Source of the DNA: Mesaphorura yosii
Lineage: Eukaryota > Arthropoda > Collembola > Poduromorpha > Tullbergiidae
DNA length: 64,000 nucleotides
NCBI GenBank assembly: GCA_009869945.1
Contig: WIXG01000126.1
Coordinates: forward strand, 1-64,000
Reading direction: 5' to 3'
Position 1 is the stretch's first letter. The number at the start of each line of letters is the position of its first letter. Shown piece by piece: positions 20,648-63,537 of this stretch. The position numbers and the translations under genes were made by a program. The notes below the pieces were generated by a model, which did no database searches, was not told where the DNA came from, and worked only from the letters and a program-made list of their open reading frames with translations.

Positions 20648-23600
20648 TCACTCATTTTCGAGTCCAAGCTTCTTCACAGCTGCGGCGATGTGATCGAACT
20701 CGTCTGCCGACTCTGGGAGCGACGGATGATGATATGAGACCAGAAAGTGACAGGTTCCCTGGACATCAGAGGGAAACCCTTTCGGGAGACATTCCCTCGG
20801 CCTCGCCTCGAATTTGAATGTCGGAGTCGTCAGCAGGAATCTGTCGGGTGAATATCAAAAGATAAATAAATGAATAACAACCAACTCTCGCTGTCGTCTC
20901 GATAGTTTTTCAAATCAAAGCTTGAACTTGTGCAAAAGTTTCACAAAGTCAACAGAACTCCAAGCCAGGCGGGCGCGAGTTGGGAAGTATTGAACGTCTC
21001 CATGAAATCCGTTATTTGAAACTCATTTTAACGTCTACATTTCTCTTCTGATGGGACGGACCACCTGACCTGGCACGTTTATCTACAAAGTTTTGCGATT
21101 TTTCAATTTTAGAGTCGATCGAATGAGCAAGCAGCGAGCAGCTAAAGTACGGTACATTGACTAAACGACGGCTGTCCACGAAAACCTGCTGTCATGAATT
21201 ATTAACACTAAACGAGCTCAGAATTCAAAACCAGCAAGTGCTTTCCACTTTCAGCTGTTCAGCTCCTTGATCAAATTTATTACCTGTACGTAGTCGGGCT
21301 GACATTAATTTTTAACGGTTCACTCCCAGACTCAAATTTATTGGCAAGGGTCACGTTGTTTCCAAAGAGACAGTAGCGCGGCATCTTCACGCCCACGACT
21401 CCAGCCAGCACGGATCCCGTGTGAAGACCAATTCTCATCTGCGAGGAAAAGTACGGTTCAGCTTCACAGAATCCGAGATGCTCCATCATCGAGCTTAGTT
21501 TCATCTTTCATGGTTACCTTAATTGGTTGCCCATCGTGTGTCAGATGCTTTCCACATGTTCTCATCATTTTGATTGCCATCCATGCAATTTGTTGTGCGT
21601 GGGTTGGGCTCACACGATGAAGTCCGCCAGCAACGCAGTACGCGTCTCCGATTGTCTCCACCTGAAAGACAGCTTAAATTAGAATAATCTAGCGATTGTA
21701 GTTCGAATTCGCCCTTCTGCCCAAGTCGTGTTCTTAATCTTTTTTGACAAAATTTCCAGTTTAATTTTTATCAACGGAAAGGTACGACTTGTTTTATTCC
21801 AAGAATCCATAACTCCAAGCGAAATATTGTGAAGTTTTGTTAAGTATGGCTCTCTTCTCTTGGTTCAAGCAAATATTTCCGTGCAGACGAATTATAATTG
21901 CATGTACACAACTCCCCTTCGCCTTCATTTTCATTGAAGTGTTTGCAATTTGTTCATTTCTATTTACATTGTACTCTAGCCTAAGCCTGGACTCATAAAC
22001 TTGTATCCCGCGTGTCCTCTGTTTAGTGTTTACATTAGCAGAGAATAAATTGCGACTGAGAGAATTGATACAGGTCTGAGAAGAGCGTTAAAGCATTGGG
22101 CTTAGTACCCAAGTATGATGAAACTGTAAATTGAGACGCTATTTGCCCTTTCTATTGCTCTTTGATTTCAATTTGGAAATGAAGAAAAATACGAACCACG
22201 CTTCAAATTCCTGCACACGGCAATGTGGAAATTTTAGAACTTTTCTAATCTCATCTTATCGCACGCCATTCGCAGGCATATGCACGGTTGGCCGAAGTAT
22301 TGAATTACGAGTCTGGGTTCAAGTGTCACGATTACCAGAGGTACTCGGTGCTTACGTTGTATTTGAGGACCGATTTCATTCTCATTACGGGGACGAGCGT
22401 GGTGTTTTGCTGAATGGAGGCGCCCACGGACGCATTAGCGGCGAGAGTGGAGCATAGAGTGCGAGGAAGCCTACTTTATGGAATGTGAATGCGATAAAAT
22501 CGAAGAGTGCTCAGATATTTATTTAATGTATTTTGTTATACTCAAATCACATTACTGTAAACATGTATGTAAACACACAATATTAGGTAAAGTACTTTCG
22601 GGTGCTAGGCTGGAGAAAGCCTAGCGCACCTTTGCATTTGCTTGCTGCCTGGCATGGGGCAGACAGGCAAGCACGGCACGCGGCACACGGCCGGCCTGCG
22701 ACTGCCACCGCGTATATACATACAAAATACATTAAAAGAAATTGGATTTTGTTCATAATCGTCTTCCCATTCTTGCTCTACCTTGCAGACTGCTGCTTGA
22801 ACCAACAATAACAACAAACTGCTTGAACTTTCTTCCTCTTCACATTTCTCTACGAACCTTTTACTGCTCCTGCTCGTTCTCGGATTGGGTTACTTAAACA
22901 GTTTTGTAAAATATTGAGCCGAGTAAGTATTTTGGTTACACACGAGTTTAGAAGCTCAAGTGCTCTTCGGCGAGAAGCGAGCGAGGTTTACCTTTTTTGC
23001 CTGCCAACCACTTGTGCACAGATTCATATTTTTATTCCAGCTCAACAATAACATCAACAAAACCCCTGTCTGTTAGCTAATCCGCTCGGTACTCTCAAAT
23101 CTGAATTTTGCATCTGGCGAAATGGTGTAATGCTTCATCCATAAGAACAATACAATTATTTGGCCTTATTTTCGTCGACCCGTCCCTCAAGCCACACTGG
23201 AGGGCCAAAACTCTAGCTTAAGTAATCTTCTTCCTGCCATATCAGGCTACTGACGTTCAAGCTCAATTTCAATTTTCTGCGCGCCGAAGATACGCAGTAC
23301 GGAATTAGTTTGAAGTTCCTTGGAAATTCGTCGACATGAACCAGTCGCTCGCAATATTTTGTGATCCACATCTGCTAATTTCACTGAAACATGTCAAATT
23401 AATGTGTGATTCACTTTGCGCGTACTTTTAGCGGTATGTTGCTCATCCCCTGAGAAATTTTCACAAATAAAGTTACGAGTTCTGAGCGAGAACAAAGTGA
23501 AATGTGACATTATCGCCGGCCGTCGCCGTCAAATACGTACGTACGTACATGAATTGACCTGATTAACTTTTTGTCTTTCGCCACGTTTGGCAAACATGAC

Positions 23601-26600: not shown

Positions 26601-29600
26601 GAGAATTTCGGAAATAAGTGTGAAGATTAAGATTGCGAGAGAGAAGCTTCGAAGGCTTTAGCTACTCAACTTTCCGTCTCTGAATTAAAGTTGCTAAAGT
26701 CTTTCGTCAAGTTTTGATTTTCAAGTTTCAACAGACTCTAAAAAGAAGTCTGTAAAATTTTGAACGGTTTTGAATTGAATGTTTATGAAGTTGAAATTCC
26801 AAATATCAAGAATGGAGTTTTGCATATGAATGCGAATTAGCAGGTCGCCTTATAGAAATACCTCCCTCAGACTCTTGACTTCTATCAATTCTTTCGGGCG
26901 AAAAAACATTTTACGCGCGTACAAGCAATAATGGAGGTATTCCAATTATGTCTATAAATAAACTCCAGGTAAAAAATTTGTAAGGCGTTAAAAATAAATA
27001 AATGATACGTGCGAAATTTCTTTTCGAGTTCAAAGACTGACTGATGACATAAGGTATTCTTACTTTGTAAACATCCAAATGCCCACAAAAGGCATCAAAC
27101 TGCGTGTAGAGATTCTGCAGCATGGCGACAACCATCATCGGCGTTGCTGTTGAACAAATCGATGTGAATCCAACAATATCACTGAATAGCATTGTCACAT
27201 TTTCATGCGTTTTGGCTTCAATGGTTTCACCTGAAATAATTCAAACACGATTATTTGACGCTTCACTGCACCGGCTTCGCCTTTTCCTTCGCACCAGCAA
27301 TGCAAAACGACTTCAATAAATCGAACATTTCGATTAATCGAATTCTTACCGCTTTGAAATTGAGATATACTTCTGAGTCAGTAATGACTGAAGAGATTAG
27401 TTTATGAGCGTTAACGATTTTTCAAGATGAATTCCTGAGAGTTATTGGACGCGGATATGAATTCAGTGGAATACTTATTCTTCCTGCATCAACCGGATGA
27501 AGGGAAAGCTGCAGCGGGAGGTGAATAGTCAACCCATAACGAGGATGAACGTAAGGAAGAAAAATGTGGAGCATGATTCCCGAAATTGAGATAAATGGGG
27601 CTCACGTTTATATATACTCGGCTTTCTGCACATTGGCTAAGAATGTCTACACATAAACTATATTGTTATAGAGATTTACCCAGCCAAAGTCGTTTGGCAA
27701 TGTCCTTTGGAAAAATAAGATGAAGGAGGGACACATTTTTCTCTCTTTCGCGGTCAACGGCTTTCGAGGCTTCCTCAATCGAAGTTCGCAATTTATCCAT
27801 TCTCCTCTTCAGACCGTCCTGTAACAAAAAGAATTAATAATTCCCAGGTGCAAGCGCTCCGACAAAGAATATTGCAACTTTTTAAATTAAGGTCGTTCGA
27901 GTAAACTGGCATGAGCATTGATTGGTTTGTGTCTCGTCGGGTATAGAAATTGAAAATTGGGATACCCAAAAATAATGCAGCTACCAAAGTCCCTTGTTAC
28001 CTTAATTGAATCGCACATGTGAGCATGTGCGTCGCTTTCATCTTTGGACAACACAAAGCTTGTCGTAATAATGAAATGTCTTCAATAATTGGATGAGGCG
28101 AAGAAGAAAATTATAATAAAGCCAAACAAACAGCAACAAAATGCGAGAAACTACCGAGTAAAGTTTATTTTTACTTTGCTTTTGTCTGGATTCCTATTCG
28201 GAAAATCAGACACAAATATTTCCTTGTTTTCTCTGTTCTCCTAAATACAAGACTTCAAACGAGAACGGAAGATGTGAGACGCCGAGAAGAAAACAAAGAG
28301 TCGGAGTATTTTTTCATTTTCTTTGCCTTTGAAGGAAATGTCCAAATTAAATAGTTCGAAGTGTTTATGAATTGCGTTGATTTTGACCCGTAATTTTCCG
28401 AGTATTGGCTCCGAGTTTGAGAAAAGAAGACTGACTGGGCGTCGAGTCTCATTAAACTAAGCCAGTTAACAATTTTCAGTTCGACAATTCATTTTCACAA
28501 TTTTCCAACAACAATTCATGGACCAGAAAGACGAAGGGCAAGAAAATCAATCGAAATGACAATCGAAACTTATTTTACAGTAGTTGCATATGCTACACAT
28601 ATAAAGAGAGCTTTCTAGTGAGTCGTGCAATGAATGGATTGGAGCATGAGTTGGCATGGCATGGAGTGCTGGAGCGGCATGATATTATGCTGGGATGAAG
28701 ATAAGAACAAGGACAACTTTTATTCTTCTCTGTTTAAATTTAAATCGCGTTGAGTTGCAACGCACTCTTGAATCTGAGCGTCAAGATAACTTCATAATTC
28801 GTATTTCCGCCCGCCAGAAATTCTTTTCACTTTCTTTTCCGCTCGGTTTCTTCGAAAAGAATTATTGGAGGGAAAGTTTCTTTTGTTCCAGGGAGATATT
28901 AAAGGCAATAATAAAGTGCACAGCACAATATTTTCAAAAATTTCATATATTTCTGCTCTGCAGTAACGCGTGGATAATGAATACTATTTCAAAATTAACA
29001 AAAGCATTGTCCTATTTCCCCATAGAGCTTGACAGACCGCCAATCTCGGGTTCCTGAATTTGCGATATCCGACAAGTTTATGTCTGGTTCGAGAAAACAA
29101 TGAACGCATCTGGCGTGGGGATTAACAAAAATATTTACTAAAGCAATCGATACTTTACATTCTGTGAAAGTTCTTGTAAATATTTACTTGTAAATGCATG
29201 TTTTTTTATACCAGCCTTCGGGAGTTAAACAGGGATTTGTTACAAATAAGCTTCCCTGCTTGCAAGTGCTGGATAGTAAATGAGGGCACTCATTTTTGTC
29301 CCGCACTTTGTTTGCAGGGGTTGCTAATTATTTTCGCGATCGAGGTGATGTCATGACAGCAAAATCACTTCTTAAGAAATCGGGGCCCCGCCGGGCGCAA
29401 AAACTCTTGCTTCGGCTAGTTAACAGTAAATTAGATCCGCATTCTCATTTGCAGGTGATTGAAACTTTTTCGTTTCGAGAGTAATTTATTCCAGACGCAA
29501 TGTCGCTGTTCTCGACGTAATTGGTTCACGGCAATAAGCCAGCTAAAACAGCTCCACCGAAAGACATAAAAGCAAGCTGCAAATCGACGACAGGACGCTC

Positions 29601-32600
29601 GATTTGTGTTTCTGACAGATTGGATCCAAACTACACAAAAATATCACTCCCGGCATATTAATTAATACTAAATTTATTCCCGACATGCGCCCAAGCACTC
29701 GCATTTGTGCCGAGATTGAAAAGGCTTCCTTGGAGCATGAAAGCAGGCCTGGCTTGAGTTATTGCGAGCTGTAAATTATATGATGATTGAAATTTTGATT
29801 TATCTCCGCTGAGATTCGATTTTACATCTTTCGATCTTCAGGGACAAATTTAACTCGAACATGAAACACGACAAGACAAAGGGAATCAAGGAGGATTGAT
29901 GGCACAGGAGTCGAGACAGCGCAAGGGCGAATTTAACGACCTGACTCAGCTCAGATAAAATACCCCTTCAAAGAAAGAGTTCTTACAACAGACAACAGGA
30001 AAATGAGGCTAAGGTGAATCGTTCTGTCCTGCCGCCATGCATGCACTTGTTTATAACCTGAGCACATAAAAAATAAACTTTTAAAGTGAAAAATCAAAAG
30101 AATGAGAGCAGAATAAAAGACGAAGCGAGCTCGAAACAAGAAAATGCGTCCACCCAGCGACAGAAGCAGCCTTGAATTTAGACAGAAGAAAGTAAGAAAG
30201 GAGAAAATGAACTTTGCGAGAGACAAAGGCGATGCTGGCGATCATCAACATCATCATTTGTAGGTATAAATGCGAGAAGAACACAACAATACTACCAATA
30301 AACTCGGTCGGAGTTTAGAAAAACTAAAATTTATTGCACGTCTCTCGGGAATTCTCAACAGCGTAGCCTTCATGTGCAAAGTAAAGTTTATGTGAGTTTG
30401 GGAGCATCTTGTTCGCACTTGCTTGTCGCACCGGGAATGAAGGAGGAAAAGAGAGATTAAAATGTTGATGATCTCTGCTCCGGCACGACGCGACGTCGTG
30501 AAAGTTTTATACTTCAGCGGTATGACACTTTCTCCACGATATTTATATCGTTCATGATCCAGTGCTGTGCGAATTGCGACGCATATTGCTTTGGCACCTA
30601 TTCTCACACGTTTGTGAAGAGATTTAAATTTCTCAGTTTGACTGACACCCTTTCTGCACGGCACGCCATGTGATGAAAGGCAGTCAGTCACAGCTTCGTC
30701 AGTAACTGGTTGGTACGATAATTGCCTTGCTTAGGACAAGATCAATTATCCAATTGGGGCCGGGTGAATGTCTGTCAATTTCCTTGGATCTACAATGCTC
30801 GGGAAATAGGCCTCCATGCGTGAGAAATAATAAACAAACAGCGGAAATTAAAAAATTCCATAAAGCGAGACTCTTTCATGAATCATAGCTGTGCCACCAC
30901 ATATCTCCAGCTACTGCTTTTGCTACCACTTGTTTTATGCTAACGATACGTACCCGAGAAGGCAAATAAACTTAAATACTGGAAACTCCAGTCCAGTTTT
31001 GTTACGTGATAGAGAAATTTCAAAGCTTACGAGTGAATGACGAGCAATTTATTCGGGTTACTGATACTACCACCTATTTATAGTAGTCGAACTAAAGTCT
31101 ATTTTATGGTGTGAATTTCAGGGAGCGGAAATTGGCGATTAGTCGCTGGCCTTCCTGGCCAAAACTTCTCACATCTTGCAATACGGATTCCTTCTTTTTG
31201 TCCTATTCACAAAAATGACAAAAGACGCTCTATCGACTCTGACATTCTTTCGCTCTGATAAAGCGTCCAAGCATATTTTGGCTCTTTTTCGACGGGCGGA
31301 GCATTTCAAGCCTGGCTAACCATTTGGCCTCTAATATAACAATTTCCTTCGCATTATTCTGCACTAAAAGCACGGAGGATGGGAAATTTCAACGGAGCTA
31401 TGAGAAAAAGCGACGACGGCAGTGAGAAGAAAAGAAGAAAGTGCACGGATGCGAAAGTCCGTTCGGAAGCTAGCAACTCAGCAGCTCAACTGGCCATCAA
31501 ATGTCATACCAGCCCGTAAAATGATGATGGCAGAACAAAAACAAAAAGTGACACGGAAAAATGCGACGCGATTGAAGAATTGAAATGAATCTCGACTGCT
31601 TTGATTTCTTCTGGGCATATATCCTTTCTCTTGCAGTTCGTTGGCAGTGGACCAAGTGAGCGCGCTCGCTGCAATCCATCTCAAGCAGATAGTATTGATT
31701 TTGACTTGCAATTTTCAAATGGGGTCTAGCGAGTAAGTTTCCCTCTGAAATCTTTAATTTTTTGCAAAATCCTTTCACTCAACGCCATGGCCATGGAGAG
31801 GCTTCGGCTATCGGCGGCCTCGACACGCTAGAGTTCAGCCCCAGCCTAAATTCCGTAATATTTTAAGTCTTGTTCCGATACTCATGTGAAGGACTAATCT
31901 TTCCATTACGCTCGTGCTACATGAATCATTTCACGGTACACAATTAGAATCATGCGTCTGACAGCACAAATGCAATCCCCATTATATCATGATTAGAGTA
32001 GCCTGCCTATGCGCTACGTACACTCTGAAAGCAGTGCATGCGGAGAAAAGTCTTTTGTACGATCATAAATTTTTTTGCAAGCATTTAAAAAGGGACTGCT
32101 TGTTAAGCTGTCATAAAAAGAGCGTAACTTCTGCTCACTGAAAAACTGCCTTTCAAAAGCGTATAAAACTTGAGCCAGATCCAAAACCTTTTCATCCATA
32201 AAACAGGCTCCTCATTTTAGTGCTTTGCTTTGTGCGCTGCTTCACAAAAATACAGGGTACAATGTGCTATTTAGTTCCGGAGTAGGAAAACTAATAATGC
32301 TGTGATTTAATGCGTATTTGAGCTTGCAGAAAGATTTAATTAGAGAAGTTGGCACCTGTGCTCGCGATTGTTCCCCAACCAAAATGACATCCCGAGTCGC
32401 ATCGTGAATGGGAATGTCCGAGATGTAAAGTCCTCGAGTGGTGAGTCCCTCCAAGCCCTCAATCAGCGGCGACCCCAGAAAAAGGAGGCATTGCGACTCC
32501 CAGCAATCCACCATTTGGCCCTTTAGCTCCATCCCCTGTAAACGTAAACATAATTACTTTGAGAAGAAAACTGGGCGACTGGGGATTCAAGTTAAGGAAA

Positions 32601-35600
32601 TTGGAACCGCGAGGCTTTTTGAGGAGAAGGGTGAAAGTAATCAATCTTGAAAGCCCAAAGCATCCGAGTGTTAAAATTGTAGGGAATTGCTTGAAATTTA
32701 GTATGCAAGCAACAGAGAGGCAGGAATTAACGAAAGCGGAAATAAAACGGAAGCGAAAATGGGCGCGAATTAGAATAAAAGAAGTGGAGTAACGAAACGG
32801 AATCGAACCTCTGCGAGTTGATTGGTTCCATTATTTCTTGATAAATTTATGAGACGCAGTAGAAAAGGCGTGTTCAGTCGTTGGAAAATCGACTCGAAAG
32901 AAATTTCGTTCCCCAAGTCAGGACGAACGAATTGGAAAAATTCGGTCGCCTTGTACTTCTTGCTGCTGCTGAGAGGGGCGAGCATTTGGCTGTCGACGGC
33001 GCCAGGCTCGGAGACCGAGGATGACTTAAGGCAGTCGCCACCCGCCGTAGCTGAAACTTGCGATTGTTGGTCAGCAAGAAAAGTTGGCGCAAAAACTTTG
33101 AGGAGGCTCGATCCGAGTTGCACCATTAACAGGTTGCGGTCGAGGATGAAATGCCACGGAAAGGCCTTCGTGAATAAGCTCACCGAAAGCACCAAATCCT
33201 TTGGACGTTGAGATAAGACTCGCTTCTTGCGGGGAGAGGAGACTTTGGCCACTTCGAGGGTTGTGAGGCTAATGTCGTACACGTACAAGTAATGCACCTT
33301 GGCGAGCGACTCGTCGTCACTCCGACCTTCTCGTCGGTGGCTCGACTTGCCGGAAGTCTGAGGGCGACATTGGATCGAGATGGTCGACGAGTACAGATTC
33401 GTGCAGATAGTCGAGAGCAGGCTTTGAAAAAATGGACCAAGCAGTTTCTCCCTGGAGACCGTCTTGTAGATCACCGTGTAGTGACTCGTCTCAACAGGGT
33501 CGTTCAGCGACGAAGGCTCCTTCGTGGTGATTATCGTCTCTTCAACCTTCTCCATTATCGACAGTCTGCGGCGATTTAACCTTTTAATTTGAAACCACCG
33601 CCAAAGAAGCAAATGAGAAGACTGAACTTACCCTTGGCTAGAATGCTTCAGGACTTCGAGGACGCCGTCCAAATTTATTAGAAATTTTCCAAAGTCCGGA
33701 CCAAGCGCGCGATACGCTCGCTCAAAATGCGAGCTGCAGCATTGAAAGTAAACTTTTCCCAGCGCTCGAATAAATCCTTCAATTTTGACCTCGCCATCAT
33801 CTGAGGAAAACAAATTGCGAGAAGTTGCGATTAGACCCTGCATATTTAAACCGTCTTGCAATATACTTGAAGTCATTAGCATACGATTAGAAACTGAACA
33901 GAAATCAATGGTTCAATGGAACAGTACAAATTGCGTGCAGTTTGAGTCTTGAGACCCACGCACATGGTTTCTCCTTGGGAAGTATGCAAAGAAAGTTTGT
34001 TGGGTGTCCTGAGTTGGTTTTAATGACACGCACTCGGCTGCCGGGCGAGAGCGTCACTCGAAGGAAAGGAAGCAGGAAGAAACTGTGACATTTCACTTTC
34101 ACTTCAAACTTTCCAACTAGTATTATGTGCTCTCCCGCTATGGCTTTAAAATTAAACAATGCTTTTATAAGAACCTTTTCCTTCCCTCTTCTGGGTTGGC
34201 TGTTCCAGACTCGACGACTTTCTTCCGTCCAGCGTACCGTTCTACTTCGCCAGCCAACCACAAAAAAAAAATGGAAAATCGACTGGAGCTCAAATTGGGC
34301 AACGAAATTCTCAGAGCGTACGATATCACAATTAATGGAAAATATCCCTTATGAGTGTGCATCTTGATCAAATTCGCTCTGGTTTGTCATTTGAGTGTAT
34401 GTTAAGACATGGCGCGTATTACAAATACTATGAGACTGGTCATAACGCGAAGTGGCAAAGGCAGGCGACCATTGCGATAGACAAATGAAGCTTTTACGTC
34501 TCATTGTTTCAACACGACACTCAGCAAGTGGCCGTGGCCATGGCGTGGCGTGGTCAGGCTCCAAAGCTCACATTACACCGAAACAAAGTTGAACAATACT
34601 CTTGAGAGACTAAATGTAAACCTAAACGCAAAGCTTCTTTTTTCCTGTCAGAAAGTTTGGAAGACCATTCTTTGTGCATGTGTAGTGGGAGAAAGAATTC
34701 TTCTCTCAGAAAAGAGTGAAAGAAGAAGTTTAAAAATAGGGATAAGAAAAGCGTACGAGTGAAAGAATTCGTACGGTGCTGGTTACATGGCCTTGTTGTT
34801 CAAATTTGAACATATTATTCATTACCACAACATAACAAGCGGAAAACGTAGCGGAAGACTTGCCTTGTCGTGTTCTCGGTTTCATGCAACCATTTATTTT
34901 CGTGCTCGGCCAGCTGCCGGTTCGGTTTGTGCAGTGGTGGTCGCTGAATACGTTGTTACGTTGTCGGCGCCCACCGACGAATTTCAAATATCGTATGACG
35001 AGCCCGAAATTTCACGAATCGCGTACACGATCATCAATGCCTTTTAATTATATACTTCGGGGTGCGTACTCACGCGATACATTTACAATAAGTTGAAGAT
35101 TTCGTGTGGAATTTTCTATTCAATTAATGATGACTGACTGGTCGGGAAGCTTGTTAAGCTGTAAGCAGGAAATACTGGACGTTTATGGACTCACTAATCA
35201 GCTAAAATTGGCGTTTTTGCATTCAGAATTTCCCTATTTGACTAGCTTAGAACCATAATTTGTGGATTTTCACTCTGATTAAATTTTCTACGATTTGTTC
35301 GCTATTGTGAAAACCAATTTGGAAGAATTACTGAGGCAGTAAGCCGTAATGAAAAGAACACGGTCACTATCTCTACCCAGAATCTGTGTCGTTACATTCT
35401 TTCATTAATGTTCCTGTGGTTTTCTACGTTTTACTATGCGCGCACTCCGGGTTATTGGCTAAGAAGTTTAAATTGGCACAATATTTCACAATTAAGGGCG
35501 CTTACGTTTACTTCCCTGTGCGAGCATAAGATTTAAAATTAATTTTTGGTGCGGCTTGGTTTATGCTGCAATTTAAATTCTATTAGTTTAGCTTTACAAA

Positions 35601-45300: not shown

Positions 45301-46664
45301 AGAATAAAAGAAGGCCAAAATATTGCTCTGTGATGGTGTTTTTATAGCAACCTTTTCGTATTATACATATTTCCTTATCACAGCACAGATGCTGCTGCGT
45401 TTTATGATGATGCAGCCGAGGAATTTTCTCACAAGCCGCAGCCTGACAGATAAAACTTGTGGCGTGAAGAAATGGTTGTGTACTATTATTTCGGGGATAA
45501 GTTCTGCACTTTTTCGGCAGTCGGGCGGATCCTAGCTATTTTATACTCGCAAAGAGCCTCTGATGATGATTTGCGGAGTTAATATCAGTCAGATGAACAA
45601 TAGTGAGCCAGGACTGACTGCCGTAAATGAGCAGCGAAAGCAAACATAAAATCAAGTTAAGGACGACTGGAGAGAACGCGTAAGTTCGAGTGCTATTGTT
45701 GCGGATTGAATGAGCCACGCAGCCCAATAATAATCGTATATAAGCACGAGGATGCTCTTGGCTGTCAGATCAAGAATTCTTCCACTGAAATACACGCCGC
45801 CACGACGGTTTAAATCTCGCACGCGAGTTTTCCCTTTCGCTTCATCATCACCGCAGTTGTGTTTCGCAATTCAGCACAGGCACACAAAGCACAAAATATT
45901 TTGTTCTTTTGTGCTGATTGATTTGTTTGTTGTTGACAGTATCAAAGCGATTCTGCTGAAATATTGCCTGTGAATTCTGGAACCCGCGCTTACGCTCACG
46001 CTGGGACTGCACAGTCGAGAGAAAGCACGGCAGTCATAATCATTTAAACTCGAGCCCTGTCGTGGAAGTGCGTTCGTTCGGTGCACGCGCCTTTTCGCTG
46101 AGAAAGATTGACAAGCGGGCTAACCTCATCCGCCTTCCGTTCTCTTAAGTAGATTCATGCTCCTCGTCTTGTCTTGAAAGTTGATTACATAATTCAATCA
46201 CCTTGCGTGTGGGTTCAGATTGAGTTCAAGCGGCATTCCGTCCAACTCTGTTTTGTTCTACTGCGCTCAAGTTTTCCCAGAGGGCGTGAATAAATAATGA
46301 CTTGACTTGTGGTGTTTGGTTTGATCTTAAAGTCTTGGAATTCCAAAACCAAACTACAAATCCGGCATTATTCAAATGCAGGGCAGAAATTCGCTACGCG
46401 CGGGGCTGCGTGAATGTTTGCACAACAATAATAAGGAAGCGGCAACGGAAACATAAATAAAGGAATACACTGCATAATAAAAGGGCGCTCAGGCTTTCTC
46501 TTCTCGGCTCGGCTGAGTCTGTAATTCTTGGTTTTATTGTTGTAATCACCGTCATCCTTATCTCATTTCGCCTTGACTCGGCTCGACTCCCATGAAATGA
46601 TTTCTCGTGTCTCGTGTATGCATTCTGAATGCATTGCTTAAGAAAGGAAGAGAAAATTGTGGCG

Positions 46665-46684
46665 ATGATGATGATCATCATCAT
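46665..46684. repeat. Perfect 20-bp palindrome of ATG/CAT triplets
   Basis: ATGATGATGA is followed without spacer by its exact reverse complement TCATCATCAT. It was probably formed by triplet-repeat slippage. Confidence 0.7.
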
Positions 46685-49600: not shown

Positions 49601-52600
49601 ATCGTAAAGACATTAAAGCACGCACCTTCCTTCGACTGCAACGCGGATGTCACAAACTCCTACTCGCCTAAGTTAAGCCCGAGATTGTCGGCTTAAGTGC
49701 AAGGAAAGGTTGAAGAGTCATTAAAAGACACGAAGGAACTCCAACTGCAAGCGGTGAAAGTGGAAACAGATTATTCCATTCGTGAAAAATGCCGTGCAAG
49801 AAGTTTTGATGGATGTTCATCGAATGGAAGTAAGTTTCTTGGGATTTGCGTACCAACTTACTTTGTGCATACTTTTTGGAGGGACTGACTAAACGGATTC
49901 GTGAGTAAATTTTTCGGGTGGCTTGTCTTAAAGATGAAAATTGAAAATTGCATTTTAATGTTAAAACATAAAGTGCTCTTAGCCCGAACAAACTTCAGTT
50001 CGATTTCACACATATTTCGTGAATCCTGAAATCGCGCGAGCGAGCAATGGAAAGCTTTTAAACCAGTTTCGAGAAGGATTACATTTGCCATTTGCGGAGT
50101 AGTTATTGATTATAGACAAAGTTCATCCAGAGTGGGAATCACGCGTGAGAGATTTCAGGATGCTCATATCACGAGAGCAGAATGAAAACTCTTCGGAGCA
50201 ATTGCTCCGGTTTCCTCGTGGGACTTGGGACATCGATCCGCCGCTCAGGCTCACGTGCAGACACATCATTAGAACTGGCTTATCGAAAACGAGATCGGTG
50301 CGAGCCGCTCCATAACAAATCCCATTAATTGAAGTATTGGCCCAATCTAATTGAAATTACGTTCCCAAGCACGTGTCCGCACCCACAATTGAGCGGTCTC
50401 AACATTCCAATGCCGGCCATGAGATCTTGAAGCTAGGAAAATCACGCAAATTACCTGGGAAAATGCTGCAAATTGCAATCAATATGAAATGAAATTGACT
50501 TCGGTCGTGATTTCTTTGCGCGAATGTTCCGGTTGCTTCACAGACCTCGAGATTTCTCACTGGATGTTGTGCGTCGGTGAACGTTCACTCTGTGACATGT
50601 GACAAAAACAATATTTGTTCAGATCAATCAAGCTTGATCAAAGCGGTTGTTCACAGCAAACAAATCCTCTGTATGAAATCACTTGTCACACGCACAAACG
50701 AGAAACGGACTGTGTTGTTTTGCGCAGCAATGAGAAAGTTCGATTTGGCTGCGAACGCAGTCGTAGCGTCGCACCTGCACAACACCAGTTTGGCGTACTG
50801 GGCGGATTACGGGCCCGATTTCAATTAACCGTGGAGAATTTTGAGTAACTTGACTTCGATCGAGTGAGATAATTGAGTGATATCAGATTATCGGAAAATT
50901 GACTGGCGGAGTCTGAGCACGACGACCCGCAGCAACCCGCAACGTGAGTCAGCGCGAGAGGAGAAGAGAATGAAAATGTGGAGAGCACACGTATTTTTGG
51001 CGCTCTAATTTCCAACCACTCTTCTTTTTGGGTAGTCGTCGAGTTGGTTCTTCTGCTTTCTTATCGTTGCTGCTTCAAATTGCAACGCGAAACGAGACGA
51101 GTGCGCGCTTTCTCCTCTGCCTTGCTTTCTCCTCTGAGTTTGAGCTTTTTTCTTCCAAGTTCCTCGATCAAACACGACAGGTTTCGTATGAAACCATCTA
51201 GCAACGGAAAATAAGGAGAGGACGCTCAGGCTCAGCTCAGCCGGTTTGTGCCCATGCTTTGGCTTTCGCGTTAGGCCGAGAGAAAGTTGTAAGTTATGTA
51301 TTGGGAAGCGCGCTCTCATACGTGCATATACGCGAATATGTGGCATGTTCCAACCAGCAGTTCGTTCTTTCTCTTCTTCGCTCCATGCGTGCTTGCTGCG
51401 GAGAGCACGACAGCAAGAAAACGAGCACACGCTCAAACCCACAATGCATTTTGTCATTCCGCTGTCCAAGTAACTGCATGGTGATAATGGAGAAAGCAAA
51501 GGAGTTGTGTGAGCGCGTATAATATCTTCCTTGTACAATTACACGGACGTGCACGTGGAAACTTAATGCTCAAGCATGCATGCCATGCCATGGTTTTTCT
51601 GGTTAAGCGCAGGAGGAGAGCTGAGATGTTTTCTCCAGACGACCGACGGACTAAGAAGAATATGATTCTGGAGAAAAAGCGTAATTATTTAAACACAGGA
51701 CTGACATGAGAAGAACACGTGCGTGCTCCGAAGTAACAACCGCACAAATGTGTTTGTAATTCATGTTGTTGAATTTTAAACTGCCTCGTATTTCTTTCCC
51801 TTTCATTCCTTTCTTTCCGCAAAGAGAAATGTTTCCGCAACAACACGAAAACATTTATGAGGCTTCAGTCGAGTCGAGTCTCTTCCAGAGTCTTATTTAT
51901 TATCATGCTCCTGCTGAATATTGCATGAGTCTGTTTACAGGGTACGTATAAACTTGTCACTCCAGGATTTAAAATTGTCTCTGCAAGTCTTGGCCGTCCT
52001 GAGAAACGAAATGAATAAGTAAAAATGCAGCGACCACGTTGCGTTATGCGTTGGCACTTCAGTGCGCCCGAAAGTGCATTAAGATGAAAAGGTCAATAAG
52101 CGACTCTGGCGGTGAGGAAAATTTAATTTGAGGCATTTCTCATGCGACCACATTCACAGTGACTTTAATCAGGATGAACTTTCTTGTGCGGGAAGATTAT
52201 TTAATTCTCTCGTACGAGCAGTGTGTCTTTGCGTCAGCCGTCAAGTGTACTTGGATTTGCATTATTAAAGAGCGAAATAATGGTCCATGATTACAGGCCT
52301 CAAGAGCACATTGCTTCTCCCTCCAGAAAAATTACAACGAAAATATTGACATTCTCAACCGGCTCTCAGCGCGGCATTAAACAAAATTATTGAAATTTGA
52401 ATCGAATGCAGAGCAGAAGAAAGTTCAAAAGACGTTGCAAAATAACTGCGACAACGCAAGACCCCGTTTTTCTTCCTACGCTCTTTTTCGTGTACCTTTG
52501 TAGCTATAAACGAAGGAACAAGGTGTGATGTGTGTGCATTTCTAAGAAAAATTGCCAGGTACTGCGCGAGTGAAACGAGACTTGTTTTATCTCGTTTGAC

Positions 52601-55135
52601 GTGGAGCGTAATGATAATGATGGGCGTAATCGTGATCATACGGCCTGAATGCGCATAGAAAATCCTGCGTAACCCTCCGTATGCCATTCACGTTATTAAT
52701 ATCAATTCTGGATAAATCTATATTCAAGATTACGGCAACGCTTCACACATGAGCACAATCAGAGTAGCTGCACTTTGGACGTCTTTTGCCAGTCTCCGTT
52801 TGTTTGTAGTTTGGTATGTGATGACCAGCATAGAAATAGAACCAATTCTTCATAACTCGATGGAGCTTCAGGGAACGTGAGAGGAAAGGTCATAAGTCAT
52901 GGCTTTTTTGAGAAAACCTTTCTCGAGAAAATTGAGATTCTCGTCATATGTCGTTCTCAATTCTCATAATTTGCCCACACGTTTTCTTTCGACATATTCG
53001 ATTCTCCAAAAGTAATAAATTATAAAGCTTCGAGGAATCGTCCTCAAGCTGATGGAAAGTGGACGACAATTTCTCGAATATCCTTGACTTATTCTCAAAC
53101 TGGCCGATTTTAGAGGAAATCTCAGGTAAGAAGTTCTAGATTCTGATTTCTAGAAATTCCATTTCACCAGTCGAGAACTATTCGTCAGTCATGGGATGGG
53201 GTGTCGTGGCGTCTTTACTGAATTTTAAGGAGGGAGTGATAGTAATACCTGCCACCACATCGATTGGCTACAAAAGATATAATACATTATATATTAACGG
53301 ACGTCTAATACAATATTTTGGGTGTATAATATCCGCATCAGCAACGAGCTCGCGCGGCGCGTCTCGCGTTGGTAGAGAAAGTCAGCTCATGCACTCTCGC
53401 CGGCACGGCACGGAAGAGAGAAAGAAAATGAATGAATAATATGAAACGAGGACAATAAAATAAAAATGGGTTTCCTTCTTGAATACAAAAATTAGATTGT
53501 GAATCGTTCTCGCGTCTTCTGCGCTCAGCTTGCGTGCTTGTGCTTGTGCTTACTTTACACTGACTGCTGCTTTTTTGGAGTTGGTGAAGCCATGAACAGA
53601 CGATGGCGATGGCAATGGCAATATTGTACGCAGAGGAATATGATTTATACTTTCTCCGGCAGGCAGTCAGGCAGGCAGACGTTCGGTCATGCAGCAAGAT
53701 TCGACGGAAGAATTTCAGAATTTGGTCGAATTCTGAATACAAAGTACATTTGGTCTAAGCGTGCATTTATTTGCTGCCTTCATTCCTTTTCTTGCAGGCG
53801 AGACAGGGCAGACAGAAGAATAATTGCTTTTATTATTAAAAATTCTTGTGCAAGGACGATTAGCCTGTGTCTGTAATTATTTCCTCACAATCTCCATACA
53901 GATGCCATTGCACTACAGCACTGCAGGGCGGGTGAGTGTGGAATTCGTTTTTAGTATCGGGCGAATGCATTTGGAATGTAATGATTTAATTCGTTCGCCC
54001 GTGCTACTAATTGGTTTCAAATCATTTCAGCGGAGAGCCGAAACCAAAACCAGAGCGTGAACAGCACGAAATGTTCGTTTATCCGGACGGCGATGCTTTG
54101 CTTGTATCCGAGCCCCAGCCACAGTGCGAGTATGTAATTCGGCTTTGCGTAACTGAGGCAATCACACACCATTTTATTTTTACTCTTCCACACGGCACTG
54201 CATTGCACTAGGATCGCATGACGACGCGACGACACAAAACTTAAGTCGTATTGATATTCGTGGCGTACCCTTTCCCATCCTCTTTTACTGCAGAGATCAA
54301 GGCAATATGAATGACTGCGGGGCAATTCAGGCGCCGCCACGTAACTGCGCAGATAAAAGTCCGAGTGATATGACGGAAGAGGCTTAGAGCCCTTGCTTCC
54401 GTGCCTTGGATAGCTGACTTGCCTGTCGATTACAGTTACGCTACGGCATATAAAACATTGTCATGCTTTGTGACGCTGGCTTCATTGCAGAAGAAAAATG
54501 GATGAAAGAGGCAGCGAGGATGAGAAAGCATTGCAGAAAATGACTTTATAGCCCTTCAAACAATTTATGGGCAAGCCGCACTGATTAATATTAATTGTTT
54601 GCAACTAATTCCTGTCGTCATTTAACACTGGTACCCAGATTTAGTTAAGAAGCTCTCGCGTTGCAATTCATATTCGTTAGATTTTCCGCGTCACTGCACT
54701 GTATTTTCTACTCATTCGTATTCTTGAGTAGTTTTCTCTGTCTTCATCATGCTCCAAGCACCAAGAGAAACAAATCCTTCATGTTAATGAAGTTATTAAG
54801 GGTGATGAGGTCAAAACGATGTGCGGCATGACATGACAGACATTTGCGGATGGCATACGAAATGCAAAAATCCGAACATTGGCTTGGCAGAGTGCGCTTA
54901 GACGGTCAATAATGATGAGTTGTGGAAGTCAACTGCAAATAACAAATCTCTTCCAAGGAGCTGAGCGCGTACAGGAAAAGATTTTGTGTGTGCCTGAATA
55001 TTTGTGTGTACAGTTACGCAGTTACGCTAAACAGATTATGGTCACTTTGAGCACGCTGGTGTACGCGAACAGTACTTATTATTTTGCGCGTTGGCTTATT
55101 AACTTAGCGTCTGCGTCGTAGCGTTCGTACCACGC

Positions 55136-55320
55136 CGTACTTTCCCCAATTTGTCTGCCATGCCGTTGCCTTTGCCGTAACGGAGTTACTCACGGGCGGG
55201 CAGGAGCGTGGAACAACATCCGTTTCCCATTGCCGTGCAAGTGCACCGTGCGGGTGCGGGACCACCGCGAAATGGCGAAATACTTGCTTGCAGTGCTGTG
55301 CTGTGCTTGCATGCGGTGCG
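55136..55320. other. CpG-rich island in the alpha-beta interval
   Basis: A run of GC-rich sequence with many CG and GTGC words (for example CACGGGCGGGCAGG and CCGTGCGGGTGCGGG) stands out from AT-rich surroundings, 6.4 kb upstream of the beta-1 ATG. It could be a promoter or a non-coding first exon. Nothing in it is coding by similarity. Confidence 0.3.
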
Positions 55321-58300
55321 TGAATAAAGTCTATAAATTACCTTTGCCATTCTTTAGCTCCTTCTCTAGAAACCAGAAAACCCGAAAAATGAGTTAGAAA
55401 CGAGTCTGTGAAGATTACAAGGTGAATTCTTCATACGAGCGGCTATCATGTCGTGGATGCTCGGCATTTTAATAGGAATTATGTGCACGAATAAAGACCG
55501 ACCGACGGACTGACCGATTTTTACATTTGAACGAGGCCTCGGCAATCGAACTGAGAATTTCGCACCAAAATTGCAAGATGAGAGACCAAGGCGGAGAGAC
55601 GTGCTAAGGCCTTTGTGGGCCAAAGAAGCTACTGTGTCGTATCCGATGCCATGCCAACCATCTATCACAATTCCCAAAATCCTGCTCAAATCTTGCATAT
55701 GCTGGAATACATGCGAATTTTTGAGTTTCGCAGTTTGCATCGCATCCGGATCTGTTTTGAAAACGTTTGCAATCCAGGATGAATATAACGTGCTACATAC
55801 AAAATCAATTATTCCGAAATCGCGAATGGCAGGACAAGGTTCAAATAGATTGAAAGCGTCCTGGCAAGAAGCAACTCATACATCATTTTTGACTTGAGGC
55901 CGAGCCTGTCACGCCACGAACAGCGTCGGGCCCCCACCCGCATGTTTATTCACTTGACTATTCCTTGACCGTCGTCGATCCTTGGCGCAGTGTACCCATA
56001 CCAATTATAAGCAACCCGTAATGATGGACGGCATGACGGATTAGAGTCGATGTTTTGTTTTCTACACCTTAAGACACGGATCCCAGCATTTTTGAATGTA
56101 GTCAGTTAGTTTTCTATTTGTGTTTTGCGGAAGTAAACAACGCAAACGGGATCCGTTCCAGACTCTGTTTACTCTTACTAATGAGCTGTTTGCACTATTC
56201 ACGCTAGACAAACGCTATTAACAAATGTTCATGCTAATATCCCCATCATATTAATGATGTTGAAACAGAAAAAGGCGATTCGATGCTGCCTCGGATCGAC
56301 TCGTTGCGATTAATTCTGGTAACATTATCCAAACTTCTTACATCAAATTAGTTCCGGTCGCATTCACCGTCATTTTCATATTCGTCCTGTCCACTTTACT
56401 CCCTTCAAGCAAAAAGACGAGGACGGAGATCCGGCGAAGACTTTGAACCGCCGTCCGATTAAATTACTCGGAACTCTGCCCTGCTCAGGCAGCGACCAAT
56501 CATAGTCAATTTTGGAGCCGGACGCCACACTGCTGTCTTGTTGCCTTGGCGAAGAGGGCAAAGTCTGTCCAGGCCACCTGAAACTCGACGGTTGTCTTGT
56601 CGTGTCGTGTCGTGCCACGCTCCTTGTAATAAACACATTATGACATGATCCATGTTCACGTCCGTCATTAGATATTAAATGAGTGCGGCGCGTGGAAAGA
56701 CGCTCGCGAGCAGCAAACCAAAAGGGAAAGCACCGTCGTGGTGATGTACTTCAGTTGATGTGGTTCAGATGTACACTTCACATGGACCGCCAAGATGTGG
56801 GAGAGATTCAATTTCATCGCGTTCTTCGCCGGCCATGTCCTGCCTCGTCTCTGACGGCTCAGCCGCTCAGGCATCAGAAACATATGACTGAAAATCTGCC
56901 TGCTGGTGGTCCGGTCGTCCAGCGGCCCAACGTTGATTGATGACCTCGCTTGGCTTGCCTTGCTACAATAATTTCCGTGCTGGGACTACGAGCGGTTTGA
57001 ATGGCCTTACTAAAGCATTCGCTCCGAATCTTCGCGCTCGCCCGCGCACTAACGAACACAAACACGCTCATTTCACCAACCCATCGCCAAAGCCTTCGAT
57101 CGTCTTAGCATTAATTTTTCTCCGTGTTGCATTTTGGAATGGGAGTTTCAAACGTATCGAAGAATTCAGCTTAGAATTAGAATTCACCCGGCAAATTACG
57201 CCATTCCTGCTGACCGAACAAGTTGACGAAAACCAATACGAGTTCCAATCTTATCTATATTATAATTTGGCAAAATTGGATCACGGAGCAGATCCTTCAA
57301 AATATGCAGACGTGCCATGAACGCGAATTCAGGTTGAATGTAAAAAGTTGCTTAAAGTTTATTATGCGCCGAATTCTAATGAGCGGGTAAATAAACAAGA
57401 CGCAAACAGACTTTCGCGAAATGGAAGAGGCAAATTTCTGGCACCTTCGTCGAATAACAAAATTTATGAGGTATTGGCATGAAAAGGTGTCATATCGTAT
57501 TAGCTCTGATCCTGATGAATTTCATGAGATTCTGTCAATGTCGCAAAGAGTGCGAGAAAAGAAGCCCTTCTGCTTGGTTTCCCATGCTGACTTTTAATCT
57601 TTACACGTAAAATTGCTAGTCGAAAGGCGACGACGTGCTGGAATTAGAAGAATAAGAGTGGGTGAGAGTAAGATAAATTGACAGTGTGAAAACTCTTTTA
57701 ATATGATAAGTGGCACCTTTTAATATGTGCGATGTAGTGAGAAAAAGGTGTCTGCCATTACATCACGCAACTTTTGTTCGAGTATTTTTTGCTGAGCACT
57801 ACTAAGATGGCATTAGCAAAAGCGAATCCGATGCTCGATGTGCTCGTTGCCGCATCATTTTCCAACTTTTACGGCTTGTATAACACATTTTATATGGCCG
57901 CGTTACGTTTTACATGCATTTCCCCAAAAGTAGCACTCTAATGTGTCAAACGCGGCCGTTTTCGCGTTACTTTGTCAGTGTGCGAAGTCATAGTAAGTGA
58001 GAAGTTGTTCTAAATGCGAAGACGCCTCATGAAATTGCAGGCCAGAATATGTTCGGAACATTTCCATGAACATTGTCGTCGTTTTATGATTATGATCTAC
58101 GAATGCGAATGCCAACAGTTTTGTAACTCCAAATCCGTCTTGTGCTGTGAAAGCTACAATCTCGGAATTTGAATTGAGTTCTATTTTACGTCGTAATCGT
58201 AATCGCAGAACCCTCATATTTGCATATTATTACACAACTTTATCGCCCGGCTCATCCGAAACTTTTTTAGGCCCTGCGCAGGTATAGCGTATGATTTGTG

Positions 58301-58631
58301 AATCGCGAAATCGCGATATGAATGCTTTAAATAAGTTTGGCAACGGTTTCCCATGCATGACGAACAGATTGCCGAGCCGATGTTTGAGTGTAAACATTTT
58401 GGGTGGTGTGTTCAGGTGTACTACGACGCCGTCTTTGCCAAGAAACCATCGCTCATCGATAAACCTGCGCAGCGTAGGTGTGAAATCTATTCTTGTACCG
58501 CCAAAAGTCTCCGGTCTACCCGATAAAGAGCATTATTGACGAAACTTTTCAGGTGATTCAGTTTTCTTGCCTAACTCGAGTCCTTTGACACATCTTTCCA
58601 CTTTCACCGCTCACCCGCCTGAGGGCTAACT

Positions 58632-58666
58632 ACTCGCCACGGTGCGCCGGGCCCACCGTAGCGAGT
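58632..58666. repeat. GC-rich hairpin, 13-bp stem
   Basis: ACTCGCCACGGTG (58632-58644) pairs with CACCGTAGCGAGT (58654-58666) with a single mismatch, around the 9-base loop CGCCGGGCC. It is the most stable-looking short stem seen in the alpha-beta interval. Confidence 0.6.
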
Positions 58667-61600
58667 CCCAATTTTGCTAACGTTATTACCAAACTAACAC
58701 AAATTAACGCGCGACACGTTCAGACCTTCGCAAGAAAACGCAGTACTTAAGCACAGGAGTGCCGTGGGGCCATGGAGAAAGTGTCTGCACTTTGTTTCGT
58801 CAGAAATTTCTCAGCGCTCTTTCGAACAAAGTTTCGTTGCGAAATTAGCCTTCGGTGTCTTCTCCGTGTGCGTTTTGCATTGCATTTCTCATGTCATCTT
58901 TATTTTATGCACGCGTCTGGTTATTATTTCGCGTGTCGTGTTTCTGTCGTGTCTATTTCTTTAGGAGTTGTTATTTTGTTATTCAATTTCCCCACTGAAA
59001 TCTGATACGAGCGTTGTGGTTGATTCTGGCCCGGCCGACTTCCACTCGCTTTCCTCAATTCGAGATGTGAAAACACTCGTCGGTGACAACTCAACGGTAT
59101 TACTCCTGCATGACAAGATTTTAGTGAAAGATTGAATAAAAATAAAAACGGAGAACTCTCGAGACGAAGAAAAGAATTGAAGAGCATCACAGCCGTGCCG
59201 TATCCATTACAATGTAATTTAGATTTCAATCTTTACCCTCCACTTTTAAATGAAGTCTCGGGACTTTCCTTCATTTTCATTTCAATCATTGAATTTCATT
59301 CCACGATTCCATTCAGAATATTCTGCAGGCGCTACTTCAGTAATCTTTATTTCAATTTCAAATGAAATCGTTAGCCGCGCGACGCAATTGAAGAACTCTC
59401 GAATCACAAGAGCGAAATCGTCGGGTTCCGCACTTACTTTCGCACTGCTGCACTTATCAGCGAATGGTGACATTGTTGACTTGTTCGTCCTCATTTTTTC
59501 TCGATTTTGCCAATGCTCTTCGGAGTCTCTCCATTTTGAAAAAACAGAAATGTAGATTTTTACCAGTACAAGAAATTTGGCGCTGCTAACGGGCCAACAT
59601 TTTGCAGCAACTCGACCTATTTTCCGTGCCTCTGTGAAATCGATCGCCAACGAATTCATTGTTCCTAATTCATGACCACCAACGACGCCGGAGCGCTGCT
59701 GCGTTAAATGAACACCCGAACACCCATTGAGCAGCAAAGCAGGCCATGTTCAGAAATTGTTGTTCCGGCGAGAATTTCAGAACGAAAATTTTCTCACATG
59801 CTCGTTTGTCTTTCGCAGATCGTGGGCGGACGCTAGAGAATGGCGCGGACGCGGGCGGAAAGGTAAAAGTGGAGGGAAATGGAACAAAGTGGAATGAAGA
59901 AGGAAAAAATCGACTATTTTTGGACTTCGTTAAAATGGGATAAAGAAATAAAGAAAGTGGCGGTGGCAGTGCAGAAATTCATGCACTACATTGCATTACT
60001 CGTTACCCGCGTACGCCACGCACATTAAAACGCGGCCACATCGGAGTGTGAGCGTAATTCAATACTGTCTTGGCGTTGTTCAAAGTGCCGTGCTGTGGTG
60101 GTATGCGCCCAAGACAAGCTGGAGAGATGAGTGTGAGTGTCTGCCTGCGTGCTTGCTCGCGAGAGAAAATCTCTTTTGAATTGCAACGCTCGTCAGAGTG
60201 ATGGTGTTGGTTTTTGGTTGCTGTTGCTGGAGAAAGTGAAGTGAAAGCCGCCCGAGCGCGAGTCAAATATTTTGACGAGAGGGAGTTTTTCTTTGCAAAA
60301 ATATAGAGCGGAGCAGTGCAGCGCGCAGAATAGAGCCAGCCACAGGCACCCAAAGCCAAAGAAAGCAAAAACCCTCCCAAAATACATCATCCTACAACCT
60401 GAGACTGACTCTCTCCGCATTGCTTCTCTCATTCGTTCTAGAAATCGTTCGCAACCAGTCCGGTTTAAATCTAGCTATAGAAAGAAAGTGTGTAGCTTCA
60501 ACTCTTCACGGTCGCGAATCCAAAACCAAACCAGGACATGTAGCGCCGTGTTCCGTGGGCCTGCTACCTTCCTCGACTCAAATCTCGTCATAATTATCCC
60601 CTTGTAACCCCTTCCCCGTGTCCGTGCACCTTCCCGCAATGCCCACTTGTGATTGTTATTAGGAACTATATTAACTCTCCAGAAAAGTGATTGAGATCTT
60701 GTACTTGTGCCAAATTTGAAGATATCGGATATCGAAAAGCAACCGAGAATCAAGAAATTACTTTCGGATATTCACGACAGGTTTCACTTACCGAAATTGT
60801 GTGCACTTCCACTCACATTTTCACATTATTCTTCCACGTAATGGAGTTTTGTGTCCACTCAGCGAGGAAGACTACACGACATCACTCGACGAAAGTTCAT
60901 CATTGTTTTCTTAGGTCCACATTTCGGAAATCTCTCACGACGTAATTGAAACGAGGTTGATATCGTGTTCAGAGCGTGTGCTTGCGGACCAGAATAAATA
61001 CAGATGTTGGGAGGCAAGACGACGGAGCGCAGACCAATTTTCTGGTTTCCAATCCAAGCACATTTCCTCTGCTATTGTAATATTTCACCTTCCTGTTCTC
61101 ATTCTTTTTGTGCACGGGGCCAAATGAAAACGTTTGTATTCTTCTTATGATTATTACTCATATACAAATGCACGACAGAGACGAAGACGAGTACATAAAC
61201 TGTGCCGCTCTGTTCCGTACCTAGACACTGAGTATAAGAAGATAGTGTTCAAGATTGTCATTACACTATTCCACTTTCTCTTTGCTCCAAAGACAAAAAC
61301 ACGCCACACAAACGAGTCCTACAACACCGCTCTGCAGGCACACGAACCAAACTGAGAAACAGGGCGAGAGCAGCCCAGCGAAGCTAAGCTAAGAGCGAAT
61401 CTTTTCTTGTTCTTGCTGGGAGAAAGAAAAAAGTGTTTCTCAATTTTTCTTTCTCTTGTCTCTCTCATTCTCTCCAACATCGTGCCAACACGTGCACAGC
61501 ACACACGCTCCGTCGTCCAAGACACTCGAAATTTATCATTTCGTGTGATATATGAAAGCTAATACAAATTTACATTCATACTTTGCTCCGAGTAATTTAT

Positions 61601-61723
61601 TACTCAGACTCCGGTCATAATTTTCCACAAAAACACGAGAAACAATTCAAATTTGAATTGGAACAAGTTACGACAGATTTGAATTCACCGGAATTTAACG
61701 TGCAAGCAAAAATAACAATAAAC

Positions 61724-63537
61724 ATGGTAAGTAAAGAATATGAGATGGAATTTGAATGTGCCATTCAAATGTGAATGTGGGCCATTTTGATTAACGAATA
61801 TGTAATTTCAGTACGGATTCGTAAACTACGCTTTGGAGCTTCTCGTCCTCCGGAGCTTTGGCGAAGAGACCTGGGAGCAAATCAAGTAAGTTTAATCGCT
61901 CATTGCGGAATCTCGTATCACTAATTTTATGGCCATTGAAATCAGAGTCTGGCCCCGACAACGCACCGCAACACAACGGAAAACAGCGCGCTGCTAGAAC
62001 AATATCGGTCTTACGTGCGCTTATCAAAGAGCTAATTTTAGAGTCTGCTGTTCCCTTGGGACTCGTCCTCATCATTATCTGCGCGAATTTAGAGTAGGCG
62101 TCTTGAATTTTATCCGAGTAAAAGATCTGGGAGTAATGCGCCAGATAATTTACATCTTTCTCCATTCTCCTGCCTTCACTGGTATTGTTTGCCTTTCCAG
62201 TCAGCAGGCATTTGTATTGTTGACTTGGCCCGCCTTGACTTCTTGCACAGTCAAGCCCTGCTCTGGGCTGAGCTTTGCATCAAGCTCGAATTAGCTGAAT
62301 TTGCATGGCTTGTGTCGAGCATCATGTTTTGAATTCGTAATTGAGTGTACATTTTAGCAATGTTGCCATTACCATCGCCATGCAGTGCCAGGCCAGCTCG
62401 GCTTCAGGCAAAGCTCGTACGCCATCGAGATTTGTTTGTTCTGAAGATTAGCGGCTTTAATTCAGGCGAGGATTCTGAAGTCTGACTGAGAGCGATGAAA
62501 GCAGGCTGACAGTGGCTTGAAACTGATCCTCATCTCAACCCCGTATCAAGTGCGGCCATGGCATGGCAGCACGGAGACAGAAATGCTTTCATGCATATTG
62601 ATTAGGTTTTGGAACTGAAGATCATTGATACTTGTAATTGGAAAACAGCTGAGCCGAGCTCGAGTTGAGAAACTCTCCTTCTAGTAGTACTTCGAGGAGG
62701 CTGAGAGTCTCTACGAAATCAATTTCATTGGGACCGGCCTTGATTAGTTCAGAGAGCTGCTCCCAAAGTTCTTTTAGTAAATAAGTGCCTTAATTGAGTC
62801 GAGTCTCTCATTGAATGAAATTCAATGAGAAAACACTCAAAGAAACTACGAAGCCCTTGCACTTCAATCCAATCCACACCGAACCCAAACTTAAAAACTT
62901 CGTGCGCGAATTTTGTGCCGATGCCGACGCTCTTCCTTCAATGTCAAAGTTATTTATGACCGCATGTTACTTCTTTGTCTTTAAAGGAAAGAGGCGGAAG
63001 TCGTGATGGATGGACAATTTCTCGTGCGACAGATCTATGAAGATGAGCTTACGTACAACATTGTTGGTGCTGCAGAGAAAGTTTTAAGTGAGTTCAAGAC
63101 GTACATCATTTGTCATGATACTCCTCTCCTTCGCAGTGCCATCATGCGTGATGTCACACTCTTTCCTCTCGTTTCCTACGATTTTTCAACCAAGATTTCC
63201 GCAAAATGCGTTAGACTACATTTTGCCTCTTCGAGACGTTCAAATTCAAATCGTTCCAAAATGGGAAACCGATCAGGAAAATCGAAATTCCGGTTCTCGA
63301 TTCTAAGATTTAGCTCGAGAAAAATAGCACTGGAGCAGTTAAATATTCTTGTTCTTGAATTTCTTTTCGTGAGCCGAGTATATTTTCTAATTGCATGCGC
63401 GCACTGTACTCCTTTCAGATATTCCTGCCAATGCGATTCTGGAGCTCTTTGGAAAAATGTTCTTTGATTTCTGTGTCGAGTCGGGCTACGATCGCATCCT
63501 TCAGGTGCTGGGTGCAACTCCGAGGGACTTCCTACAG
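61724..63537 (+). CDS. GUCY1B1: Soluble guanylate cyclase beta-1 subunit, 5' part (first 99 codons; gene continues past the window)
   Basis: Heme-binding beta partner of the NO-stimulated guanylate cyclase (fly Gycbeta100B, vertebrate GUCY1B1). Coding exons seen are 61724-61726 (the ATG alone, donor ATG|GTAAGT), 61812-61885, 62987-63087 and 63419-63537 (donor CAG|GTAAGG). All junctions are in phase, over introns of 85, 1101 and 331 nt. The product starts [18 protein letters not shown], then [34 protein letters not shown] and [20 protein letters not shown], ending ATPRDFLQ. It aligns without gaps to the first 99 residues of the mammalian H-NOX domain. The proximal heme-ligand histidine (His105 in mammals) and the HNOBA, coiled-coil and catalytic regions lie to the right of the window. 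The frame is also open upstream of the ATG back to another ATG at 61583, but similarity begins exactly at 61724. It is divergent from the alpha gene. Confidence 0.94.
62806..62830. repeat. Perfect 11-bp hairpin in a beta-1 intron
   Basis: TCTCATTGAAT and ATTCAATGAGA are exact reverse complements separated by GAA. It lies in the 1101-nt intron of beta-1, about 160 bases before the next exon. Confidence 0.65.

Follow-up and report, generated by a model that had tools for sequence, protein, structure and literature searches.

The window analysed here, the first 64 kb (64,000 nucleotides) of contig WIXG01000126.1 (C126; 195,495 bp) in the 93.0-Mb genome assembly of Mesaphorura yosii (1,127 contigs), contains the genes for an alpha and a beta-1 subunit of soluble guanylate cyclase (sGC). 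The two genes lie on opposite strands and are transcribed away from each other, their start codons being 17,434 bp apart (ATG to ATG; Table 1). This divergent arrangement had been proposed in a preliminary description of the same DNA, and both the exon models and the spacing of the start codons agree with it; the region delimited there begins at 20,648, where the stop codon of the alpha gene ends, and closes at 63,537 with the end of a beta-1 exon (63,419-63,537). Both gene models were built from tblastn searches with the human sGC subunits, a home-made protein-guided splicer and inspection by eye. Furthermore, profile searches of the genome placed exons for HNOBA (PF07701) and for the cyclase domain (PF00211) on both strands of this contig, at 21-33 kb (minus) and at 66-70 kb (plus), and located exons for H-NOX (PF07700) at 63.3-64.5 kb, again on the plus strand.

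Table 1. Coordinates of the sGC alpha and beta-1 genes and of the features between them (positions in the window).
Feature	Position	Strand	Remarks
sGC alpha exon 10	20,648-20,840	-	stop codon TGA at 20,648-20,650
sGC alpha exon 9	21,284-21,438	-	cyclase domain
sGC alpha exon 8	21,518-21,661	-	cyclase domain, VETIGDAY
sGC alpha exon 7	27,064-27,230	-	cyclase domain, LFSDIVGFT
sGC alpha exon 6	27,680-27,818	-	coiled coil
sGC alpha exon 5	32,356-32,535	-	HNOBA
sGC alpha exon 4	32,809-33,565	-	end of H-NOX and PAS/HNOBA; weak donor
sGC alpha exon 3	33,632-33,800	-	degenerate H-NOX region
sGC alpha exon 2, tentative	43,583-43,715	-	start at 43,652, 43,694 or 43,715
sGC alpha exon 1 with start codon	44,096-44,290	-	195 nt; donor CAG/GTAGGC after 44,096; open in the joined model
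Interval between the start codons	44,291-61,723		17,433 bp without N; single-copy within the sensitivity of the search
27-nt stretch, alpha side	44,912-44,938	-	622-648 bp upstream of the alpha ATG
27-nt stretch, beta-1 side	61,429-61,455	+	269-295 bp upstream of the beta-1 ATG
sGC beta-1 start codon	61,724-61,726	+	intron directly after it (ATG/GTAAGT)
sGC beta-1 exon	61,812-61,885	+	15-residue stretch read here
sGC beta-1 exon	62,987-63,087	+	H-NOX
sGC beta-1 exon	63,419-63,537	+	H-NOX; remaining exons outside the window

The alpha gene comprises ten coding exons, from the ATG at 44,290 to the TGA. Its nearest PDB match is an alpha-1 chain: even without exons 1 and 2, the model scores 600 bits against 6pas_A and 455 bits against 6jt0_A (which we take to be the Manduca and the human sGC, respectively). 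Exon 1 weakly resembles the N-terminal region of human alpha-1 in the alignment. For exon 2, five open and phase-compatible candidates are present in the gap, three of which use the donor at 43,583; the reading frame stays open with each of these three variants, and depending on the variant 270/652, 272/664 or 274/666 aligned residues are identical to human alpha-1. Small alpha exons set by the splicer above 33.8 kb were dropped, as was its division of exon 4 into three parts, the first boundary of which was wrong. Raw-frame PDB searches of the minus strand at 33.3-48.3 kb did not recover the alpha N-terminus, and an antibody chain that appeared there at E 0.15 was taken as a chance match. In the alignment to human alpha-1, Asp486 and Asp530, presumably the metal-binding residues of the alpha cyclase domain, are both present. 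The cyclase domain with these two residues and the alpha-type N-terminal region identify the putative product as an sGC alpha subunit.

The start codon of the beta-1 gene is separated from the remainder of the coding sequence. Within 44.3-61.8 kb, GTRAG or GTRTG comes after just one plus-strand ATG, that at 61,724, which lies 88 bp upstream of the first Tyr codon (61,812), which itself follows an AG acceptor; the exon starting there opens with a readable stretch of 11 residues. The gene extends beyond the window to position 70,939 of the contig and encodes, in our model, a protein of 661 amino acids without internal stop, although two small exons outside the window (65,506-65,542 and 66,227-66,244) are tentative. 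This model matches 6pas_B with 883 bits and 6jt0_B with 870 bits over nearly the whole chain length, and 397 of 614 aligned residues are identical to human beta-1. His105, Tyr135, Ser137, Arg139, Glu473 and Cys541 (human numbering) are all present. We take His105 to be the proximal histidine, Tyr135/Ser137/Arg139 the Y-x-S-x-R heme motif, and Glu473 and Cys541 the beta-side base-recognition residues of the cyclase domain. The protein thus has the predicted features of the heme subunit of an NO receptor, i.e., an H-NOX domain (PF07700) with proximal histidine and Y-x-S-x-R motif, followed by HNOBA/PAS, a coiled coil and a class III cyclase domain that carries the beta-side residues. As the key heterodimer residues are kept in both proteins, the alpha and beta-1 subunits are predicted to be an NO-responsive pair.

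Directly downstream of the alpha gene and on the same strand, the window carries (16,300-19,600, minus) a gene similar to AADAT (KAT II), the kynurenine/alpha-aminoadipate aminotransferase, with human KAT II chains as best PDB matches. A 549-aa open frame at 14,167-15,816 (plus) has one hydrophobic stretch, long low-complexity parts and no Pfam match. Beyond the beta-1 gene, C126:73,767-75,311 (plus) is a long open frame rich in Ser that scores high in codon usage and lacks a Pfam match in the scanned part. Elsewhere in the genome, PF07700 has five matches, two of which belong to beta-1 and three to contig C210. There, an atypical sGC gene (64,497-67,161, minus) encodes H-NOX, HNOBA and a cyclase domain with both catalytic residue sets; it is likely of the Gyc88E/beta-3 kind. 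On contig C3 (594,000-604,000, minus), two guanylate-cyclase catalytic clusters lie on one strand about 7 kb apart and are probably receptor-type cyclases in tandem. The profile search of the genome also gave 66 matches for Chitin_bind_4 and none for insect odorant receptors, a zero that does not prove their absence. The chitin-binding matches and the PDB chain nearest to the alpha protein speak for an arthropod, and the zero hints that it is not an insect; a search for COX1 gave no match.

The interval between the two start codons has a G+C content of 0.44 and a CpG observed/expected ratio of 1.17. A six-frame Pfam scan of 33.6-61.9 kb returned no family over its cut-off, the one sub-threshold match being DUF6628 (13.9 bits vs. 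a cut-off of 27); it also passed over the real short exons of this range, namely alpha exons 1 to 3 and the first beta-1 exon after the start codon (61,812-61,885). When 20.4-33.9 kb was scanned likewise in two of the three minus frames, the alpha gene was detected (PF00211 at 1.4e-36, PF07701 at 1.4e-28). Rfam gave no match anywhere in the window. In a codon-usage scan trained on the two sGC genes, which overlapped 20 of their 24 listed exons with strand ignored, six of the top 70 segments fell in the interval, with scores of 8.1-11.4. Real exons scored 8.9 (alpha exon 1), 11.3 (63,419-63,537) and 61-64 (long exons). The segments of the interval therefore resemble small real exons and stay far under the long ones, which makes a large gene unlikely and leaves a small-exon gene possible. 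A hidden large gene was thus found neither by six-frame Pfam and Rfam searches nor by codon usage.

Two other possibilities for the nature of the interval were rejected. In a search of the genome that skipped simple repeats and very common words, two pieces covering nearly all of it (44,300-52,500 and 52,400-61,720) each matched only themselves, so the interval is not filled with repeats. The repeat search revealed five direct families and six inverted pairs with a longest repeat of 31 nt, so it is not the remnant of a large inverted duplication either. The identities of the two genes, their strands, their spacing and the absence of a recognisable gene between them are confirmed.

The intron positions bear on the origin of the pair. 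Three of the nine alpha introns (with exon 2 taken from 43,715) coincide with introns of the beta-1 gene, which has 15 in the model compared; they share the phase, lie within one aligned residue of their counterparts and are all located in the cyclase domain. Random placement of introns yields 0.22-0.26 coincidences on average and at least three in 0.10-0.18% of trials. The coinciding introns thus indicate that alpha and beta-1 are old DNA-level duplicates of an intron-bearing ancestor. In human and zebrafish, GUCY1A1 and GUCY1B1 are found together at a single locus (PMC7946990), and the single locus of the human pair, already stated in the preliminary description, is given in PMC11432225 as well. 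With linkage in vertebrates and in an arthropod, the simplest reading is an ancestral pair with a change in orientation. The age of the linkage would accordingly be ancient, and the proposal of an ancient linkage in the preliminary description gains indirect support from the common intron positions and from the single locus in human and zebrafish; as an evolutionary reading it is plausible and partly supported. Two observations count against it: the homologue of TDO2, which we take to be a neighbour of the human pair and which was the sole neighbour from that locus looked for, lies on another contig (C696), and the Drosophila genes are apart.

We consider it the best explanation, with a probability of roughly 0.7, that these are arthropod NO-receptor genes that go back to one duplicated ancestor, have retained or regained their linkage and are divergent after an orientation change. 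One ancestral gene would have been duplicated at the DNA level, placing the alpha and beta-1 paralogues side by side; the paralogues would have stayed (or become again) linked, as they are in vertebrates, and their relative orientation would have changed at least once between the vertebrate and the arthropod lineages. The product would be an NO-sensing heterodimer, in which the binding of heme and NO would fall to beta-1 and the synthesis of cGMP to both cyclase domains together.

The preliminary description had further proposed that the two genes are co-regulated from shared enhancers, for which the upstream regions provide one weak and post hoc support. A 27-nt stretch occurs upstream of both genes, in equal orientation relative to each (an inverted pair in the repeat search). 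The two arms are A+T-rich and identical at 23 of 27 positions, and they form the best ungapped match (score 19) between the two 1-kb upstream stretches. None of 300 dinucleotide shuffles attained this score (maximum 17). Over the contig's first 90 kb, each pairing of 1-kb stretches yields on average 0.0031 matches of at least 19 per orientation; this background takes in alpha/beta exon homology and local hairpins. A 20-base core with one base free has exact matches in the genome only at these two sites; such uniqueness is expected for a 19-base pattern chosen post hoc. With up to two mismatches, the window has two matches to the core vs. 0.02 expected, and the genome has 16 sites vs. six for the backward-read control. 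The choice of pattern and of 1-kb frame was made once the pair had been noticed; we therefore count the match as suggestive, at about one in a hundred by our own estimate. This stretch is a new observation here and a candidate for a common control element of both genes.

On this basis, it is conceivable that the divergent order has been kept by selection, with elements in the interval driving the pair and keeping its subunits in balance, but we regard such co-regulation as doubtful. The shared stretch, with its similarity, relative orientation and unique exact core, argues for it, as do reported human data on joint control (PMC6542710, PMC5430981). The post hoc choice of frame and pattern, the inexact sites elsewhere in the genome and the A+T-rich composition argue against it. 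Furthermore, start codons 17.4 kb apart are too distant for a classic bidirectional promoter, although untranslated exons could bring the transcription starts nearer. The long single-copy interval together with the 27-nt stretch is nevertheless a fair place to seek joint control. Co-regulation is compatible with descent from a duplicated ancestor, and both can hold together. A fuller version, in which an ancestral animal pair split in flies would here be a divergent pair with the same promoter element and a common regulatory interval, and its obligate heterodimer would be co-expressed, is likewise tentative.

Chance or late re-association of two once separate genes is less probable still. Gene order moves often in compact arthropod genomes, and the Drosophila alpha and beta genes are apart; however, two random loci would lie this near in a genome of 93.0 Mb with a chance of about 4e-4 (a post hoc figure), and the linkage is found in vertebrates too. 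That unlinked genes were merged into one contig of a draft assembly in 1,127 contigs is very improbable, as the window contains no N, the interval matches only itself and the internal repeats of at most 31 nt offer no evident repeat for a misjoin.

If alpha and beta-1 turn out to be adjacent in several invertebrate phyla, the retained linkage of duplicated genes that we favour would make the NO-receptor genes unusually long-lived neighbouring paralogues, with an orientation that differs between vertebrates and this arthropod. It would then be testable whether the linkage lasts through subunit balance or through inertia, and the 27-nt stretch provides a concrete target for this question. Should the order be limited to the collembolan's own lineage, it would be a local curiosity. 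Among the papers listed in our literature search, judged by titles and abstract openings, none deals with sGC genes arranged head to head, and the words "tandem", "adjacent" and "head" are absent from the main text of PMC1435932.

Three known systems can be compared with this locus. The closest is the vertebrate GUCY1A1-GUCY1B1 locus (human 4q32.1, zebrafish), where orthologous alpha and beta-1 genes are found together as they are here (PMC7946990; for human also PMC11432225). The adjacency is found in M. yosii too, with no recognisable large gene between the two. However, we take the vertebrate genes to be in the same orientation, whereas those of the collembolan are on opposite strands and divergent. 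Drosophila resembles M. yosii in having single alpha and beta-1 genes, Gycalpha99B and Gycbeta100B; assuming that these names give their positions (99B, 100B), they occupy separate bands of one chromosome arm, in contrast to the adjacent genes here. Finally, pairs with bidirectional promoters such as COL4A1/COL4A2 are divergent genes for partner subunits, as in the present case, but their transcription starts lie within ~1 kb of each other, whereas the start codons of the collembolan sGC genes are separated by more than 17 kb of single-copy DNA.
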